DNA of 64,000 nucleotides. It comes from an uncultured Rubrobacteraceae bacterium (GTDB lineage: Bacteria; Actinomycetota; Rubrobacteria; Rubrobacterales; Rubrobacteraceae). Every line of letters begins with the position of its first letter. The first letter of the stretch is position 1. The stretch is taken from the NCBI GenBank assembly GCA_902806065.1, contig CADCVE010000054.1, positions 26,503 to 90,502 on the forward strand. Direction: 5' to 3'. The notes under the pieces are model-generated. The model saw nothing but the letters and a program-made list of their open reading frames with translations. It was not told where the DNA came from and did no database searches. The position numbers were made by a program, and so were the translations under genes. Positions 20,773 to 62,663 of the stretch are shown here, piece by piece.

Positions 20773-22094
20773 CGTCTCTACCAGTCGTGGCGATAGTGGG
20801 GGCGCCTAACGTCGGGAAGAGTACGTTTGTAAACCGGGTCCTCGGACGGCGGCAGGCGGTGGTCGCCGATGAGCCAGGCACGACGCGCGACCGGTCGTAT
20901 AACCGCGCTGAGTGGAGCGGGCGGGAGTTCATGCTGGTGGATACCGGTGGGATGGAGCCAACTGCCAGGGGTGGATTGGAGGCGCTGGTCACCTTGCAGG
21001 CGCGGGTCGCGGTCGAGGAGGCCGACGCTATCATACATATCGCTGATGCGCGTCTCGGGATAACCGAAGCAGACGCCGCGATAGCAAGGGAGCTACGCCG
21101 CGGAGACAAGAAGGTCGTGCTCGCCGCCAACAAGCTGGACAACCCGGTTGATGACTCTGGACGCTACCTCTTCTACTCACTTGGGGAGGGTGAGCCGTAT
21201 GCTATCAGCGCGAGTCACGGGCTCGGGATGGGGGACCTGCTGGACGCCATCGTTTCGCTGCTGCCGGAGGCCGAGCCGGCCGAAGAGAGCCAACTGCCCC
21301 GCGTCGCGGTAATCGGACGTCCAAACGTAGGCAAGAGTACGCTGCTAAACCGCCTGCTCGGCTCTGAGAGATCGGTCGTCTCCGAAGTCGCGGGCACCAC
21401 CACCGATGCCGTGGCGCACGAGATCGAGGTCGTCCCGGGTCGCGGCGCTCCGGATGCTGGCGTAACGCCGGAGCGTTTCGTACTGCTGGATACGGCCGGG
21501 GTAAACAGAGGCGCGCGGCGTGCGGATGGTGTGCCATACTACTCTACGCTCAAGACGGATGGTGCGATCCGGCGCGCGGACGTCTCACTTCTTCTGGTAG
21601 ATGCCGTCGATGGGCTCTTCGGTGAGGATCTCCGGCTGGCGCGCCGCGTAGAGGAAGCGGGGCGGGCGTGTGGCGTCCTGATCAACAAACGCGACCTCGT
21701 CCCGCCTGAGCGGCTGCAAGAGATCGAAGATACCCTGACCTCCCGAATGACGGACCTCAGGCCCCCCGCCCTCCCTATCTCCGCTCTTACAGGCGCGGGC
21801 GTGGAGGGTGTCATGCCGCTCGCGGCACGCCTGTATTCGTCCTACAATATGAGGGTGAGCACACACGAGATCGCAGAGTTCATCAACGCCCTCGTCGAGA
21901 GAAGCGCCCCGCCAAGGGGCGTGAAAATACGCTTCTCCACCCAGACCGGCACGGCTCCTCCCCGCTTCACCCTCTTCGCCAACCGTCCCAAGGACGTCCC
22001 CGACGGATACCTGCGCTATGTAGAGAACTCCCTGCGCCAACGCTATAACCTGTACGGCGTTAGCGTGCGCATCAGGCTCAAGAGCAGCCGTTGA
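20769..22094 (+). CDS. der: ribosome biogenesis GTPase Der (EngA)
   Basis: 441 aa with two tandem GTPase domains: G1 motifs GAPNVGKST (near residue 10) and GRPNVGKST (near 180), G3 DTGGME and DTAGVN, G4 NKLD and NKRD. A C-terminal KH-like domain follows (SAPPRGVKIRFSTQTGTAPPRFTLF). Needed for 50S maturation. The ATG overlaps the plsC stop as ATGA. Confidence 0.95.
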   Translation: MTSLPVVAIVGAPNVGKSTFVNRVLGRRQAVVADEPGTTRDRSYNRAEWSGREFMLVDTGGMEPTARGGLEALVTLQARVAVEEADAIIHIADARLGITEADAAIARELRRGDKKVVLAANKLDNPVDDSGRYLFYSLGEGEPYAISASHGLGMGDLLDAIVSLLPEAEPAEESQLPRVAVIGRPNVGKSTLLNRLLGSERSVVSEVAGTTTDAVAHEIEVVPGRGAPDAGVTPERFVLLDTAGVNRGARRADGVPYYSTLKTDGAIRRADVSLLLVDAVDGLFGEDLRLARRVEEAGRACGVLINKRDLVPPERLQEIEDTLTSRMTDLRPPALPISALTGAGVEGVMPLAARLYSSYNMRVSTHEIAEFINALVERSAPPRGVKIRFSTQTGTAPPRFTLFANRPKDVPDGYLRYVENSLRQRYNLYGVSVRIRLKSSR

Positions 22095-22589
22095 GAGGAC
22101 CGCATAAACCTCTCTACGGCAAAGCCTGATCAGTAAGCTCTGAGAATCCTCTTCGCGACCAGCGCGAAGAGCGGTGTTTTGGGGAGAATATTCCCGCCGC
22201 GATGGTCTTTGTGGATGCACTAGCCGTATGATGGCTTCTCGCTTTTTTTGGAGAGTGACGCTTTTCGGGTTAAGATACGAGTCGATAAGGGGGGCAAGGT
22301 GACGGTACCGTCTTGAATGGTGCCGGACGCGGTTGTTGTTTACAACGCGAGGGGCTGTGGGAGAGGTAGTGTTTTGTGCGTGGTTCCGGGGCGCTCGCTT
22401 GTGACGGGCGCCTTGGATGTTGGGCAGATAGAGGGACGTTTTCGGGGTTGCTCGGGGTACGGGAGCTGAAGACGATGATCAAATCGGGGCTCCGGCTTTG
22501 GATACAGATCTGCTTCGACGACTCCACCTACGGCTCTGTAAGGCGTCTAAGACTGTACTTCAGGTTCAGGGGAGGGTATACTTCAGCGT
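22095..22589. other. intergenic region between der and rsiG
   Basis: 495 bp. It holds a hairpin terminator after der (22149-22180) and a TATACT -10-like hexamer at 22577-22582 just before rsiG. A 74-codon + strand ORF (22376-22600) has mediocre codon bias and overlaps rsiG; I do not call it. Confidence 0.45.
22149..22180 (+). terminator. intrinsic terminator after der
   Basis: Perfect 9-bp stem CTCTTCGCG / CGCGAAGAG with a 5-nt ACCAG loop (22149-22171), followed by CGGTGTTTT. A good rho-independent candidate closing the scpA-to-der operon. Confidence 0.6.
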
Positions 22590-22590
22590 A
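22577..22590 (+). promoter_or_regulatory. -10 element implying a leaderless rsiG transcript
   Basis: TATACT at 22577-22582 lies 7 nt before the rsiG ATG at 22590, so transcription starting the usual 6-8 nt downstream would begin at the start codon. No good -35 is seen 16-18 nt upstream. Leaderless mRNAs are common in actinobacteria. Confidence 0.4.
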
Positions 22591-22937
22591 TGACGGATGA
22601 GAATATTTTTAGAGGCGCTGGAGGGCGTGAGGATGAGATGTATGAGTGGGAGGGGGAGCCGGATCTCACGTCCATCTCCGAGGATGAGTTGAGGGTTCGT
22701 CTACGGGAGCTCGCCGTGGAGGAGCGCGAAATCAGCTATCGTAGGCGCGTTATACAGGGCAGAATAGACCTCATAAGGTCTGAGCTCGTTCGGCGTGGTG
22801 GCGTTGCGCTCTCCCCCGAGGAGTTGGTTCGTGTACTCCTTGGTGACGAGAGACAAGCTCGAGGCCATCATGAGACCCGGTATGAGGACCAGGAGGGGCC
22901 TAATTCCGGGCCTTCCAGGCGGGAGGAGGGTAGTTGA
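22590..22937 (+). CDS. rsiG: RsiG-like c-di-GMP-dependent anti-sigma factor, single-motif type
   Basis: 115 aa, one long predicted coiled-coil helix (residues ~32-70). It contains one exact E(X)3S(X)2R(X)3Q(X)3D motif: E45, S49, R52, Q56, D60. This is the c-di-GMP signature of RsiG, which in Streptomyces (two motifs) holds the sigma factor WhiG when c-di-GMP is bound. Single-motif RsiG proteins of basal actinobacteria such as Rubrobacter radiotolerans are known to homodimerise to make the site. The cognate whiG lies at 61.8-62.7 kb. A garA-like gene follows directly. Confidence 0.85.
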   Translation: MTDENIFRGAGGREDEMYEWEGEPDLTSISEDELRVRLRELAVEEREISYRRRVIQGRIDLIRSELVRRGGVALSPEELVRVLLGDERQARGHHETRYEDQEGPNSGPSRREEGS

Positions 22938-23407
22938 GCAACTGCCCCGAGTGTGGCGCCGAAGTTACCCCGCAGATGAAGTTCTGCGCGGAGTGCGGGA
23001 TACGGTTGGTCCACGCGCAATCTACCGTCTCCTACGCGCCAAGCTTCGAGGAAGACGACAACGGTGCGACAGGCACTGGGCGTGACAATGCTCCCGAGGG
23101 AGCGGCGCTCATTGAACTAGATCAGGTCGAGGGCACGGCAGGCAGAAGGATGCACGATATCGGTGATGAGATGGTGACTGTCGGGCGCAGCCCCGAGAGC
23201 GCCATCTTCCTCGATGACGTGACGGTCAGCAGGCAGCACGCGGAGGTATTCCGGCGGGAGCGCCCCGAAGAGAAGGGGTTCAGGATCCGGGACGCCGGTT
23301 CACTAAACGGCACCTATGTAAACCGGGTGCGTGTAGACTCCGTGGACCTCAGAAACGGCGACGAGATACAGATAGGCAAATATCGCTTCAAGTTCGTATA
23401 CACCTGA
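22934..23407 (+). CDS. FHA-domain protein with N-terminal zinc ribbon (GarA/OdhI-like)
   Basis: 157 aa. A zinc ribbon C-x2-C-x10-C-x2-C at residues 4-21 is followed by a linker with Thr/Ser (STVSYAPSF) and an FHA domain (~residues 60-155) with VGRSPESAIFLDDVTVSRQHAE and GSLNGTYVN. The FHA region closely resembles GarA/OdhI, which bind and inhibit 2-oxoglutarate-metabolising enzymes unless phosphorylated by a Ser/Thr kinase. TTG start overlaps the rsiG stop. It is followed by a MerR gene, as garA is in mycobacteria. The N-terminal ribbon replaces the usual phospho-Thr tail, so regulation may differ. Confidence 0.85.
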   Translation: MSNCPECGAEVTPQMKFCAECGIRLVHAQSTVSYAPSFEEDDNGATGTGRDNAPEGAALIELDQVEGTAGRRMHDIGDEMVTVGRSPESAIFLDDVTVSRQHAEVFRRERPEEKGFRIRDAGSLNGTYVNRVRVDSVDLRNGDEIQIGKYRFKFVYT

Positions 23408-23456: not shown

Positions 23457-24131
23457 TTGGATATGACGGAGAACGGCGGCCAGAAAGACCATTACACTAT
23501 AGGAGAGGTCGTGGCTCGGCTACGCAAGGAGTTCCCAACCCTTAGTGTAAGCAAGGTACGTTACCTGGAGCGCCGGCGCTTGATAACCTTGACCCGTACC
23601 CGCGGTGGGTACCGCCTTTTCTCCCCCAAAGACGTGGAGATGCTTCACTACATCCTGACCCTTCAAGACAAGGAATACCTCCCTCTCAAGGTCATAAAGA
23701 AGCGCATCGAGGGCGGAATGCCCGTCGCGGCAGGCGATACGGGTGGGGGCCTCTCAAGAGTCCTCGAGAACAGGACTTACACCAAGGAAGAGCTCGCCGA
23801 CGCTATAGAAACCGAGACGCGCTTCGTCGAGGAGCTCGGCGCTGTTGGCGTCATAGGACGCGGTGGAGAGTTGACTCAGAGGGACGTCGAGATAGCGCGC
23901 ATGGCCCTCGAGATGGCCAAGTACTCCATCCAACCCCGCCACCTGCGCGGCATCATGGCCGCCGTCGAGCGCGAAGCCGCTATGTTCAAGCAGATCCTCA
24001 ACCCTGAGCTCCGCAGCGGCGACGAGCAACGCGTCCAGGATGCCGTCAACAAAGCTCGCCACCTCGCCGCCGTAGACTCCAAGCTCAAAGAGCTCATCAT
24101 GGACAACGTCATAGACGGCTTCGCCTCGTGA
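23457..24131 (+). CDS. MerR-family transcriptional regulator
   Basis: 224 aa. N-terminal winged HTH with YTIGEVVARLRKEFPTLSVSKVRYLERRRLI and a second helix block TRTRGGYRLFSPKDVEMLHYI. The C-terminal ~120 residues are helical with no metal-binding cysteines, like the Rv1828-type regulators next to garA. TTG 23457 or ATG 23463 may start it. It overlaps apt by 4 bp (GTGA). Confidence 0.85.
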   Translation: MDMTENGGQKDHYTIGEVVARLRKEFPTLSVSKVRYLERRRLITLTRTRGGYRLFSPKDVEMLHYILTLQDKEYLPLKVIKKRIEGGMPVAAGDTGGGLSRVLENRTYTKEELADAIETETRFVEELGAVGVIGRGGELTQRDVEIARMALEMAKYSIQPRHLRGIMAAVEREAAMFKQILNPELRSGDEQRVQDAVNKARHLAAVDSKLKELIMDNVIDGFAS

Positions 24132-24682
24132 CGGCTCCTAGCCCAAGTGAGCCCTCGCCCGAGGAGACGATAGCGCGCTACATCCGGGAAGTCCCCGACT
24201 TCCCGCAGCCAGGCATCTCCTTCAAAGACATAACCCCCCTTATTGAGAATGGTCCCGCCTTCCACACTGCCGTGGACGAAATGGCCCGTGCCATCAACGG
24301 TATAGACTACTCGCTTATCTTATCCGCCGAGGCCCGCGGCTTTGTCTTTGGAACGGCCCTCGCATACCGCGCCCGCAAAGGACTCATCCTCGCCCGCAAG
24401 CCGAACAAGCTCCCGCGCCAGACCATCTCCGCCGCCTACGAACTCGAGTATGGTCAGAACACCCTGGAAATCCACAGTGACGCAGTCACCAAAGGAGTCC
24501 GTGTCCTCGTCGTAGACGATCTGCTCGCCACCGGTGGCACCGCCCGTGCGATGTGCCAGCTCGTCGAAAACGCCGGCGGCATAGTGGCAGGTGTCGCCTT
24601 TCTGCTAGAGCTTCAATTCCTCAACGGCCGCAAGCGTCTCGCCCCATATCCTGTCACCTCCCTTATCTCCTACAAAGACTGA
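24128..24682 (+). CDS. apt: adenine phosphoribosyltransferase
   Basis: Purine salvage: adenine plus PRPP to AMP. 184 aa. Family start IREVPDFPQPGISFKDITPL, the SAEARGFVFG segment (usually GIEARGF), and the PRPP loop VLVVDDLLATGGTA. GTG start overlaps the MerR stop. C-rich codon use throughout. A tyrosine recombinase gene follows 11 bp later. Confidence 0.93.
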   Translation: MTAPSPSEPSPEETIARYIREVPDFPQPGISFKDITPLIENGPAFHTAVDEMARAINGIDYSLILSAEARGFVFGTALAYRARKGLILARKPNKLPRQTISAAYELEYGQNTLEIHSDAVTKGVRVLVVDDLLATGGTARAMCQLVENAGGIVAGVAFLLELQFLNGRKRLAPYPVTSLISYKD

Positions 24683-24693
24683 GCACCCGGCCA

Positions 24694-25680
24694 ATGAACC
24701 AGGCGGACCATACCCTCCCGGCCATCCAAGAACACCACTCCACAATAGAGCCACCGGCCCTACAACAACCCGAGATACAACGCCTCATCGACGTATACCT
24801 GCGCACCCTCACCAGCCCCCAAACTACAAGAACCTATAATACCGAAATACGCATGTTCGTATCATTTGCTTTTGACGCAAATGGGGGATTAGGGCGTTCT
24901 TCGCTAGCGGAGTTAACGGTGGAGGATATCTCCTTGTACAGGGAGCACTTGTTGAAGGCGTATGCGCAGGCGACGGTAGCCAAAAAGCTGGCAACGCTTC
25001 GCAGGTTTCTGACTTTCGCATACATGGGTGGCGCGGCTAGTATCAATCCGGAAGCGCTACGATTCTTCGCCAAGAGCCCAAAAGTAACCCAGGATCCCTC
25101 CTACAACGTGCTCACGGAAGAGGAACTGGGGCGCATGCTCGTGGCGGCGCGCGCAGCGAACCACCGGGACTACGTACTATTGGCAGTGTTAGCTGGCGCG
25201 GGACTCAGGGAGGCGGAGGTGGTGGGGCTGAAGATCGGGGACTTCCAGGATTCGGGAGAAGGTCAGGTGCTCCTGCGCATTATGGGTAAGGGCGCCAAGA
25301 TCCGCTCGGTCCCTATCTCCCCGGAGCTGTGGCAGCTCGTCCAGCGCCACGTCCTTCTTACCGGACGCAGTCTCGTCTCCCACTCGGACGCCCGCAAGCC
25401 CCTGCTATTCTCTCGAGAAGGGGGAGGAAACAAACCCCTGACTACGCGCTCCGTTCGATACATCGTCAAAAAGTACGCAAACGCCGCTAGGATAACCAAG
25501 GCCATATCTCCACACTCCATACGCCACACGGTCGGTACTAACATGGCCGTAAACCAGGCTCCACTCCTGATCATCCAACAATTCCTCGGCCACTCCGACC
25601 CCAAAACCACTATGCGTTATATTAGACGCGCAGAGCAACTCGCTAACAAAGCGTATACGTATAATACGCTTCCGCTGTAA
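24694..25680 (+). CDS. tyrosine recombinase (XerC/D-like)
   Basis: The ORF track extends to 24553 inside apt; ATG 24694 gives 328 aa. The N-terminal SAM-like domain is at residues ~30-115. The catalytic domain has Arg in GAGLREAEVVGL, Lys in GKGAKIRSVP, HxxR in SPHSIRHTVGT, His in LGHSDPKTTMRY and the Tyr in that last motif, so all residues are present. It may be the chromosomal dimer recombinase XerD or a relative; no partner gene or att site is seen. Composition flips from C-rich (C40/G13 per 100 nt) to G-rich (G38/C18) at CCTATAATACC about 140 bp into the gene. Confidence 0.85.
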   Translation: MNQADHTLPAIQEHHSTIEPPALQQPEIQRLIDVYLRTLTSPQTTRTYNTEIRMFVSFAFDANGGLGRSSLAELTVEDISLYREHLLKAYAQATVAKKLATLRRFLTFAYMGGAASINPEALRFFAKSPKVTQDPSYNVLTEEELGRMLVAARAANHRDYVLLAVLAGAGLREAEVVGLKIGDFQDSGEGQVLLRIMGKGAKIRSVPISPELWQLVQRHVLLTGRSLVSHSDARKPLLFSREGGGNKPLTTRSVRYIVKKYANAARITKAISPHSIRHTVGTNMAVNQAPLLIIQQFLGHSDPKTTMRYIRRAEQLANKAYTYNTLPL

Positions 25681-61794: not shown

Positions 61795-62663
61795 TTAGCC
61801 GAAGTTCTGTTGCCAGTCTCCATGTGCCAGCGGCGAGCCTTTCAGATGCTCCCGCAGTTTGGTCAGGGCGCGACGCAGGATCTGGCTGACACGACCCTCG
61901 GTCAGGTCTAGCGCTTTGCCGATCTCTTTGAGGGTAAGCCCCTCGTAGAAATAAAAGGTCGCGACGACCCGTTCGCGCTCCTCGAGCTCGCCTATAGCCG
62001 CGATGAGGTGGGCACGCAAGTCCCCGTTGTCGGCCTGCGATTGCGGGTCAGCGACCGACACGTCTCTAACAAGCGCCCCGTACTCGACGCCGCTCCGACC
62101 CTCGACATCCAGGCGCGCCTCCAGCGAGACGACCTGAGCGCGGGAGTACTGGTCGAGAAAGTTCCGATACTCCTCGACCTTTATGCCTACCTGCTCGGCG
62201 ATCTCGCCCTCCGTTGGCGCGCGCCTGAGTTCCTGGGACAGCCAGGCGGTAGCGGTCTCGACCTCCTTGGCACGCACTCGCACGCGGCGCGGAACCCAGT
62301 CCTGGCTACGCAGATGGTCGAGGATAGACCACCGAACCTTGGATATCGCATATGACTCGAACTTTGCCTTCTTGCCGGTACGATCCGGGTCGTAGGTCTC
62401 AACGGCATCTAGTAGGTCCAGGACACCCCCGGGGAGATCATATCCTCCTGCTCGACCAGCCCGGGCACCCGCGCCCCAACCCTGCTGGCGACATACTTGA
62501 CGAGCGGGGAGTAGTTGGTAACGAGACGGTCCCTGAGCCGACCAGCCTCGCGCTCCATCTCCAGCCATTCCTCGCTCTTCTCACCCTCGCTGGCGCTTTG
62601 CAAAAGCTCGCCGCGCACGTTCAGGTACCTGGCCCACAGACGCCCGACGGTCCTGTCCGTCAT
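61795..62663 (-). pseudogene. whiG: WhiG/FliA-family sigma factor with internal frameshift
   Basis: The reading frame is split. ORF 62663-62409 gives region 1.2/2 (RLRDRLVTNYSPLVKYVASR, GLVEQEDMISPGV), then runs into a stop. ORF 61795-62568 takes over with GVLDLLDAVETYDPD, regions 3 and 4 (EIAEQVGIKVEEYRNFL; LTLKEIGKALDLTEGRVSQI). The break is at CCGGGGGTGTCC: removing one GT of GTGT (62423-62426) restores SPGVLDLLDA and a 288-aa protein, normal for WhiG. The ATG overlaps the dprA stop. It could be a real mutation or a sequence error. RsiG, its expected anti-sigma, is intact at 22.6 kb. Confidence 0.8.

Follow-up and report, generated by a model that had tools for sequence, protein, structure and literature searches.

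A single-motif RsiG at the head of a conserved rsiG-FHA-ftsR operon in an uncultured Rubrobacteraceae bacterium

On the basis of whole-domain homology, the protein studied here is a genuine single-motif RsiG, and the data taken as a whole are best explained (at a probability of about 0.9) by a c-di-GMP-dependent anti-sigma factor of WhiG whose gene heads a conserved operon. Features of the window, that is, the whole 64,000-nucleotide stretch of DNA that was analysed, are listed in Table 1. The gene itself is ordinary for Rubrobacter: it is a further natural version of a switch whose structure has been solved. The conserved rsiG-FHA-ftsR operon, which we did not find described in print, is the part most worth following: a gene order kept in three classes would connect c-di-GMP signalling in a concrete way with the control of metabolism and division by GarA and FtsR, and this link can be tested.

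Table 1. Positions of the features discussed, numbered from the first base of the window
Feature	Position	Strand	Basis or remark
Conserved promoter/operator-like element, CTGTACTTCAGGTTCAGGGG, upstream of rsiG	22553-22572	+	conservation
TATACT -10-like box, 7 bases before ATG	22577-22582	+	consensus reading
rsiG, single-motif anti-sigma factor, 115 aa	22590-22937	+	ORF with ATG start; Pfam and PDB matches
c-di-GMP-binding motif E45-S49-R52-Q56-D60	22722-22769	+	exact pattern match; kept in single-motif RsiGs
Zinc-ribbon FHA protein, GarA/OdhI-like	22934-23407	+	TTG start codon overlapping rsiG stop
Thr31 of FHA protein (QSTVSY), candidate phospho-Thr	23024-23026	+	conservation; equivalence to GarA ETTS motif inferred
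MerR-family regulator FtsR	23457-24131	+	NCBIfam NF050798
apt, adenine phosphoribosyltransferase, next conserved gene	24128-24682	+	named by eye from sequence
whiG (FliA/WhiG sigma factor), broken into frames 62409-62663 and 61795-62568	61795-62663	-	family profile match
whiG frameshift site (ccccgggggtgtcc, net +2 versus relatives)	62421-62434	-	comparison with relatives

The RsiG protein scored 69.4 bits against the Pfam RsiG family (PF22802; E=2e-19; cut-off, 27 bits). Its best matches in the PDB were the RsiG chains of R. radiotolerans (7lq3, 7lq2 and 7lq4; E ~2e-21), followed by Streptomyces RsiG (6pfj), and its core (residues 20-86) was 66% identical to the R. radiotolerans protein. Because these whole-domain matches are far stronger than the motif, the identity of the protein does not depend on the latter. 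The gene was found to be under purifying selection (dN/dS ~0.1), and an AlphaFold2 model of the product contained a single long helix (residues 31-68, mean pLDDT ~95) that carries the motif. Previously, single-motif RsiGs were reported from Rubrobacter and Thermoleophilia, and both the R. radiotolerans homodimer and its (c-di-GMP)2-WhiG complex were solved (Schumacher et al., 2021; PMC8325347; PDB 7LQ2, 7LQ3, 7LQ4); that protein bound c-di-GMP at 12 uM alone and at 0.9 uM with WhiG (PMC8325347). Of its residues at the WhiG interface (D39, R72, R77, E91 and K60; PMC8325347), alignment to 7LQ3/7LQ4 placed the first four at D25, R58, R63 and E77 of the present protein, and K60 was replaced by R46. 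Thus, the two proteins agree in their single motif, size and contact residues, whereas the present one differs in part of its core (66% identity), has a longer C-terminal tail and is accompanied by a whiG that is frameshifted in the assembly. With the twin-motif RsiG of Streptomyces (PDB 6PFJ, 6PFV) it shares the Pfam family, the motif and WhiG as partner; the Streptomyces protein differs in having two motifs per chain and in being a monomer. The preliminary description had proposed a 115-aa protein with one exact motif that must dimerise to bind c-di-GMP and WhiG. The open reading frame and the single motif (E45-D60) were both borne out, and homology to the solved complex supports the RsiG identity, the need for dimerisation and the partnership with WhiG. 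This mechanism is right in kind; it was published for Rubrobacter in 2021 (PMC8325347) and is hence not new.

To characterize the gene neighbourhood, 84,980 species genomes were scanned with RsiG alone as the query, and 54 loci were obtained. Since no neighbouring gene was part of the query, the synteny described below does not stem from the way in which the loci were selected. Each of the 42 single-motif loci (L100-L143 minus L138 and L140) had a GarA-like zinc-ribbon FHA gene downstream of rsiG on the same strand, and an FtsR-type MerR gene also followed in 41 of them, the exception being L109, whose contig ends first. These loci belong to Rubrobacteria, Thermoleophilia/Gaiella and Coriobacteriia, the last of which extends the range of single-motif RsiGs beyond that reported in 2021. 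Among relatives of the same family, the rsiG-FHA-MerR order recurred wherever the locus was long enough, and it was also present in the genome whose RsiG matches the crystallised R. radiotolerans protein (L007). Thus, the rsiG-garA-merR order, whose conservation across Rubrobacterales had been put forward as a check, is conserved there as well as in Thermoleophilia and Coriobacteriia. The overlap of rsiG with the GarA-like FHA gene claimed earlier is also real: the stop codon of the former and the start codon of the latter share four bases (TTGA, 22934-22937), and such an NTGA overlap occurred in 24 of 45 loci, including nearly all Rubrobacter loci and many Gaiella-like ones. By comparison, the twin-motif RsiG loci that the scan gave for Actinomycetes and Acidimicrobiia had no garA-ftsR neighbour within up to 6 kb on each side. 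As far as we found, PMC8325347 does not mention FHA proteins, GarA or neighbouring genes, and no paper combining RsiG with OdhI, or RsiG with Coriobacteriia, was found in the open-licence literature, where absence is not proof.

The MerR protein scored 165.3 bits against the NCBIfam FtsR model (NF050798; cut-off, 150). It resembles FtsR/Rv1828 in this respect and in being encoded after the FHA gene, an arrangement shared with C. glutamicum (PMC6683498), although the C. glutamicum locus was described without the rsiG that stands upstream here. Ahead of rsiG, the arrangement CTGTACTTCAGGTTCAGGGGAGGGTATACTTCAGCGT-ATG was conserved in Rubrobacteraceae, and 22 of 23 loci of this family had a TATACT-like box ~7 bases ahead of the start codon, which suggests that the rsiG transcript may be leaderless. 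The FtsR site of C. glutamicum is AACCCTAAAGTAAAGGTTGAGGGTA (PMC6683498), and the best match to it upstream of rsiG agreed at 16 of 25 positions; the best matches of 46 loci averaged 15.3, compared with 12.8 in shuffles, although these sequences are related and not independent. The element upstream of rsiG had no second close copy at a promoter position in the genome. Given the relatedness of the sequences and the lack of a second promoter copy, this weak and partial resemblance makes FtsR control of the rsiG promoter a lead only.

In GarA and OdhI, the phosphorylated threonine of the ETTS motif is bound by the protein's own FHA domain. The FHA protein of the window is similar to them in its FHA core with R-S-N binding residues (GR...TVSR.H...SLNG), its FLDDVTVSR signature, its N-terminal Thr and its position upstream of ftsR. 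At least 90% of 46 FHA orthologues kept the linker Thr, which lay within ETTMSF in Thermoleophilia. On the other hand, the protein carries an N-terminal zinc ribbon, scored 108.9 bits against the curated OdhI equivalog model (cut-off, 200), and no PknG was found in the genome (no match to PF16918). The 2-oxoglutarate dehydrogenase E1 is encoded in the genome, and by analogy with GarA/OdhI the FHA protein might, hypothetically, control 2-oxoglutarate metabolism. It had been suggested that rsiG ties c-di-GMP to Ser/Thr-kinase control of this metabolism. The gene-order part of that suggestion stood and is strongly conserved, whereas its functional part is unproven, PknG being undetected and the OdhI score lying below the cut-off.

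The linkage of the three genes could be purely positional, reflecting an old shared promoter, with RsiG unlinked in function to the FHA protein and FtsR. We consider the odds of this to be about even, and it is compatible with the core of the best explanation. It is in line with the wide occurrence of garA-ftsR adjacency in Actinobacteria, including the C. glutamicum locus without rsiG (PMC6683498), with another small open reading frame between rsiG and the FHA gene in Coriobacteriia, and with the weak FtsR-like site that lacks a second promoter copy in the genome. However, gene order and strand were identical in 42 of 42 single-motif loci across three classes, and start and stop codons overlapped in Rubrobacter and many Gaiella-like loci.

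One FliA/WhiG-type gene in the genome exceeded the family cut-off, and it is located within the same window as rsiG. This is the whiG that the preliminary description had wished to see repaired; it is split at a site reading ...ATGATCTCCCCGGGGGTGTCCTGG..., where relatives are two bases shorter. The lesion falls in a C4G5 run and may reflect either a true mutation or a mistake in the assembly. In the nearest relative (G001), whiG is damaged in another way, by a premature TAG (L063), whereas the gene was intact in other genomes of the genus, and WhiG was found in 20 of 22 other genomes carrying the same RsiG locus. An additional whiG frameshift considered in G021 was only apparent, as one tblastn alignment spans both pieces. 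Outside the lesion, the window's whiG was open and under purifying selection (dN/dS ~0.14); the homologue keeps the equivalents of K53 and R58 and has a near-identical sigma-4 helix (LTEGRVSQILR). A point against the favoured reading is that Ser takes the place of G57 of R. radiotolerans WhiG, which also holds for other genomes of the genus.

The promoters that WhiG would recognize were also searched for. The genome contained 12 perfect AAAGNTT-N9-12-GCCGATAA sites, compared with 0 for a reversed control pattern, and the genes behind such sites included those for a PilT-type ATPase (pilT), a GGDEF-EAL protein, a GAF/PAS sensor, a subtilase and an RTX-repeat protein. A total of 17 strong GGDEF domains were detected. 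In R. radiotolerans, type IV pilus and DGC/PDE genes are under WhiG-type promoters (PMC8325347), and the present system is similar in having whiG together with WhiG-type promoters at pilus and DGC/PDE genes. WhiG-type promoters, one of them a near-match, were also observed ahead of subtilases, the RTX-repeat protein and an acidic secreted-looking protein (L187, L158, L188 and L189), which suggests that WhiG may drive secreted products as well.

Because whiG is frameshifted in the assembly and interrupted by a premature TAG in G001, partner WhiG may have been lost in the strain of the window. RsiG of this lineage might then be decaying, or might serve a different partner that depends on c-di-GMP, the FHA protein encoded next to it being one possibility. 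We regard such a loss as improbable. The independent lesions in the two genomes, the intact and constrained rsiG in both of them, and, as regards a new partner, the conserved coupling of rsiG to the FHA gene are compatible with it. However, both genomes are fragmented assemblies and the window's lesion lies in a base run, the remainder of whiG is open and constrained, and RsiG keeps its WhiG-contact residues. Moreover, the persistence of the 12 perfect promoters argues that WhiG is functional now or was so until recently.

A mechanism can therefore be proposed for the favoured reading, a single-motif RsiG acting on WhiG; in it, sequence identity, motif, contact residues, presence of whiG and a matching promoter set come from this analysis, and dimerisation, c-di-GMP binding and sigma binding come from the work on R. 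radiotolerans. By analogy, two copies of RsiG would pair as an antiparallel coiled coil, and their two motifs would hold a c-di-GMP dimer. When c-di-GMP falls, WhiG would be freed to use TAAAGNTT...GCCGATAA promoters, and thereby to transcribe genes for type IV pili, for c-di-GMP enzymes and for secreted proteins. Since rsiG stands first in a conserved operon and appears to have a promoter of its own, the amount of the anti-sigma factor would be set jointly with those of FtsR, the regulator of cell division, and of the GarA-like FHA protein.

With regard to the motif, residues 45-60 (EREISYRRRVIQGRID) match E(X)3S(X)2R(X)3Q(X)3D exactly and only once in RsiG. A six-frame scan of the window gave no other match among 563 open stretches of at least 60 aa. 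In 41 single-motif RsiGs from three classes, E45, S49, R52 and D60 were invariant and position 56 was Q or H; the corresponding pattern, E(X)3S(X)2R(X)3[QH](X)3D, likewise occurs exactly once in RsiG, on the modelled long helix. That an unrelated coiled-coil protein should match the motif by chance deserves almost no credence: the motif is short and appeared in 81 of 200,000 shuffles of the RsiG protein, but the whole-domain matches in Pfam and the PDB already refute this idea, and the motif is kept in the 41 orthologues.

Twin-motif proteins were found at the garA locus as well. Two complete motifs were present in RsiG of Gaiella sp. FR_16 (L138, 5632-6249) and of a Lake Baikal Thermoleophilia genome (L140, 5911-6459), and a further twin-motif RsiG at a garA-ftsR locus had a divergent second motif (L151, 5785-6477). 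In a tree of motif helices, the Gaiella-like twin repeats fell inside the Gaiella-like single-motif clade (96/95), apart from the first (100/95) and second helices of Actinomycetes. A second, independent intragenic duplication of the motif at the garA locus of Gaiella-like genomes is favoured by this tree, but AU tests over 54 columns failed to reject a single origin (p = 0.36 and 0.33 when run singly, 0.157 jointly). These twin-motif cases are candidate independent duplications in which the change from homodimer to monomer could be studied. A broader scenario is tentative, and we think it rather doubtful: RsiG would have arisen within the garA-ftsR operon of early Actinomycetota, where a single transcript would fix the amounts of an anti-sigma factor armed by c-di-GMP, of FtsR and of an FHA regulator of metabolism that depends on phosphorylation. 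Growth state and second messenger would then act together in keeping WhiG inactive; the twin motif would have evolved twice, in Gaiella-like genomes independently of the Streptomyces duplication.

Several variations of the locus were also observed. In Coriobacteriia and kin, a gap of ~300 bases separated rsiG from the FHA gene (L124, L125, L127, L128, L135, L136, L139, L141 and L142); in the four loci read, it contained a conserved open reading frame of ~85 aa (for example, SLSESIRSFLEDLSVDELEERVVEYVVREVGNGRRLSDALHDPYVRNRLSDEK...), and the two such products tested had no Pfam match. A second rsiG copy suspected between the FHA gene and ftsR (L021/L113) was rejected, as its translation revealed a low-complexity chance match. 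In the complete genome of Rubrobacter marinus (L101, 5956-6765), rsiG and the FHA gene share one open frame of 270 aa. An evolved fusion was considered and discarded, since alignment to relatives showed that the sequence differs by one base, at a G run in the variable RsiG tail; judging from this alignment, the single frame is a sequencing error or a small mutation. The distance between der and rsiG was only 0.5 kb in the window (22094-22590) and ~2.9 kb in several relatives; in L100, an 897-aa sugar nucleotidyltransferase-like open reading frame lay between the two genes. Finally, a tyrosine recombinase with a Phage_integrase domain (24679-25680, forward strand) directly follows apt. It was conserved in the Rubrobacter loci that reach far enough, and thus belongs to the usual chromosome order rather than to a recent mobile insertion.
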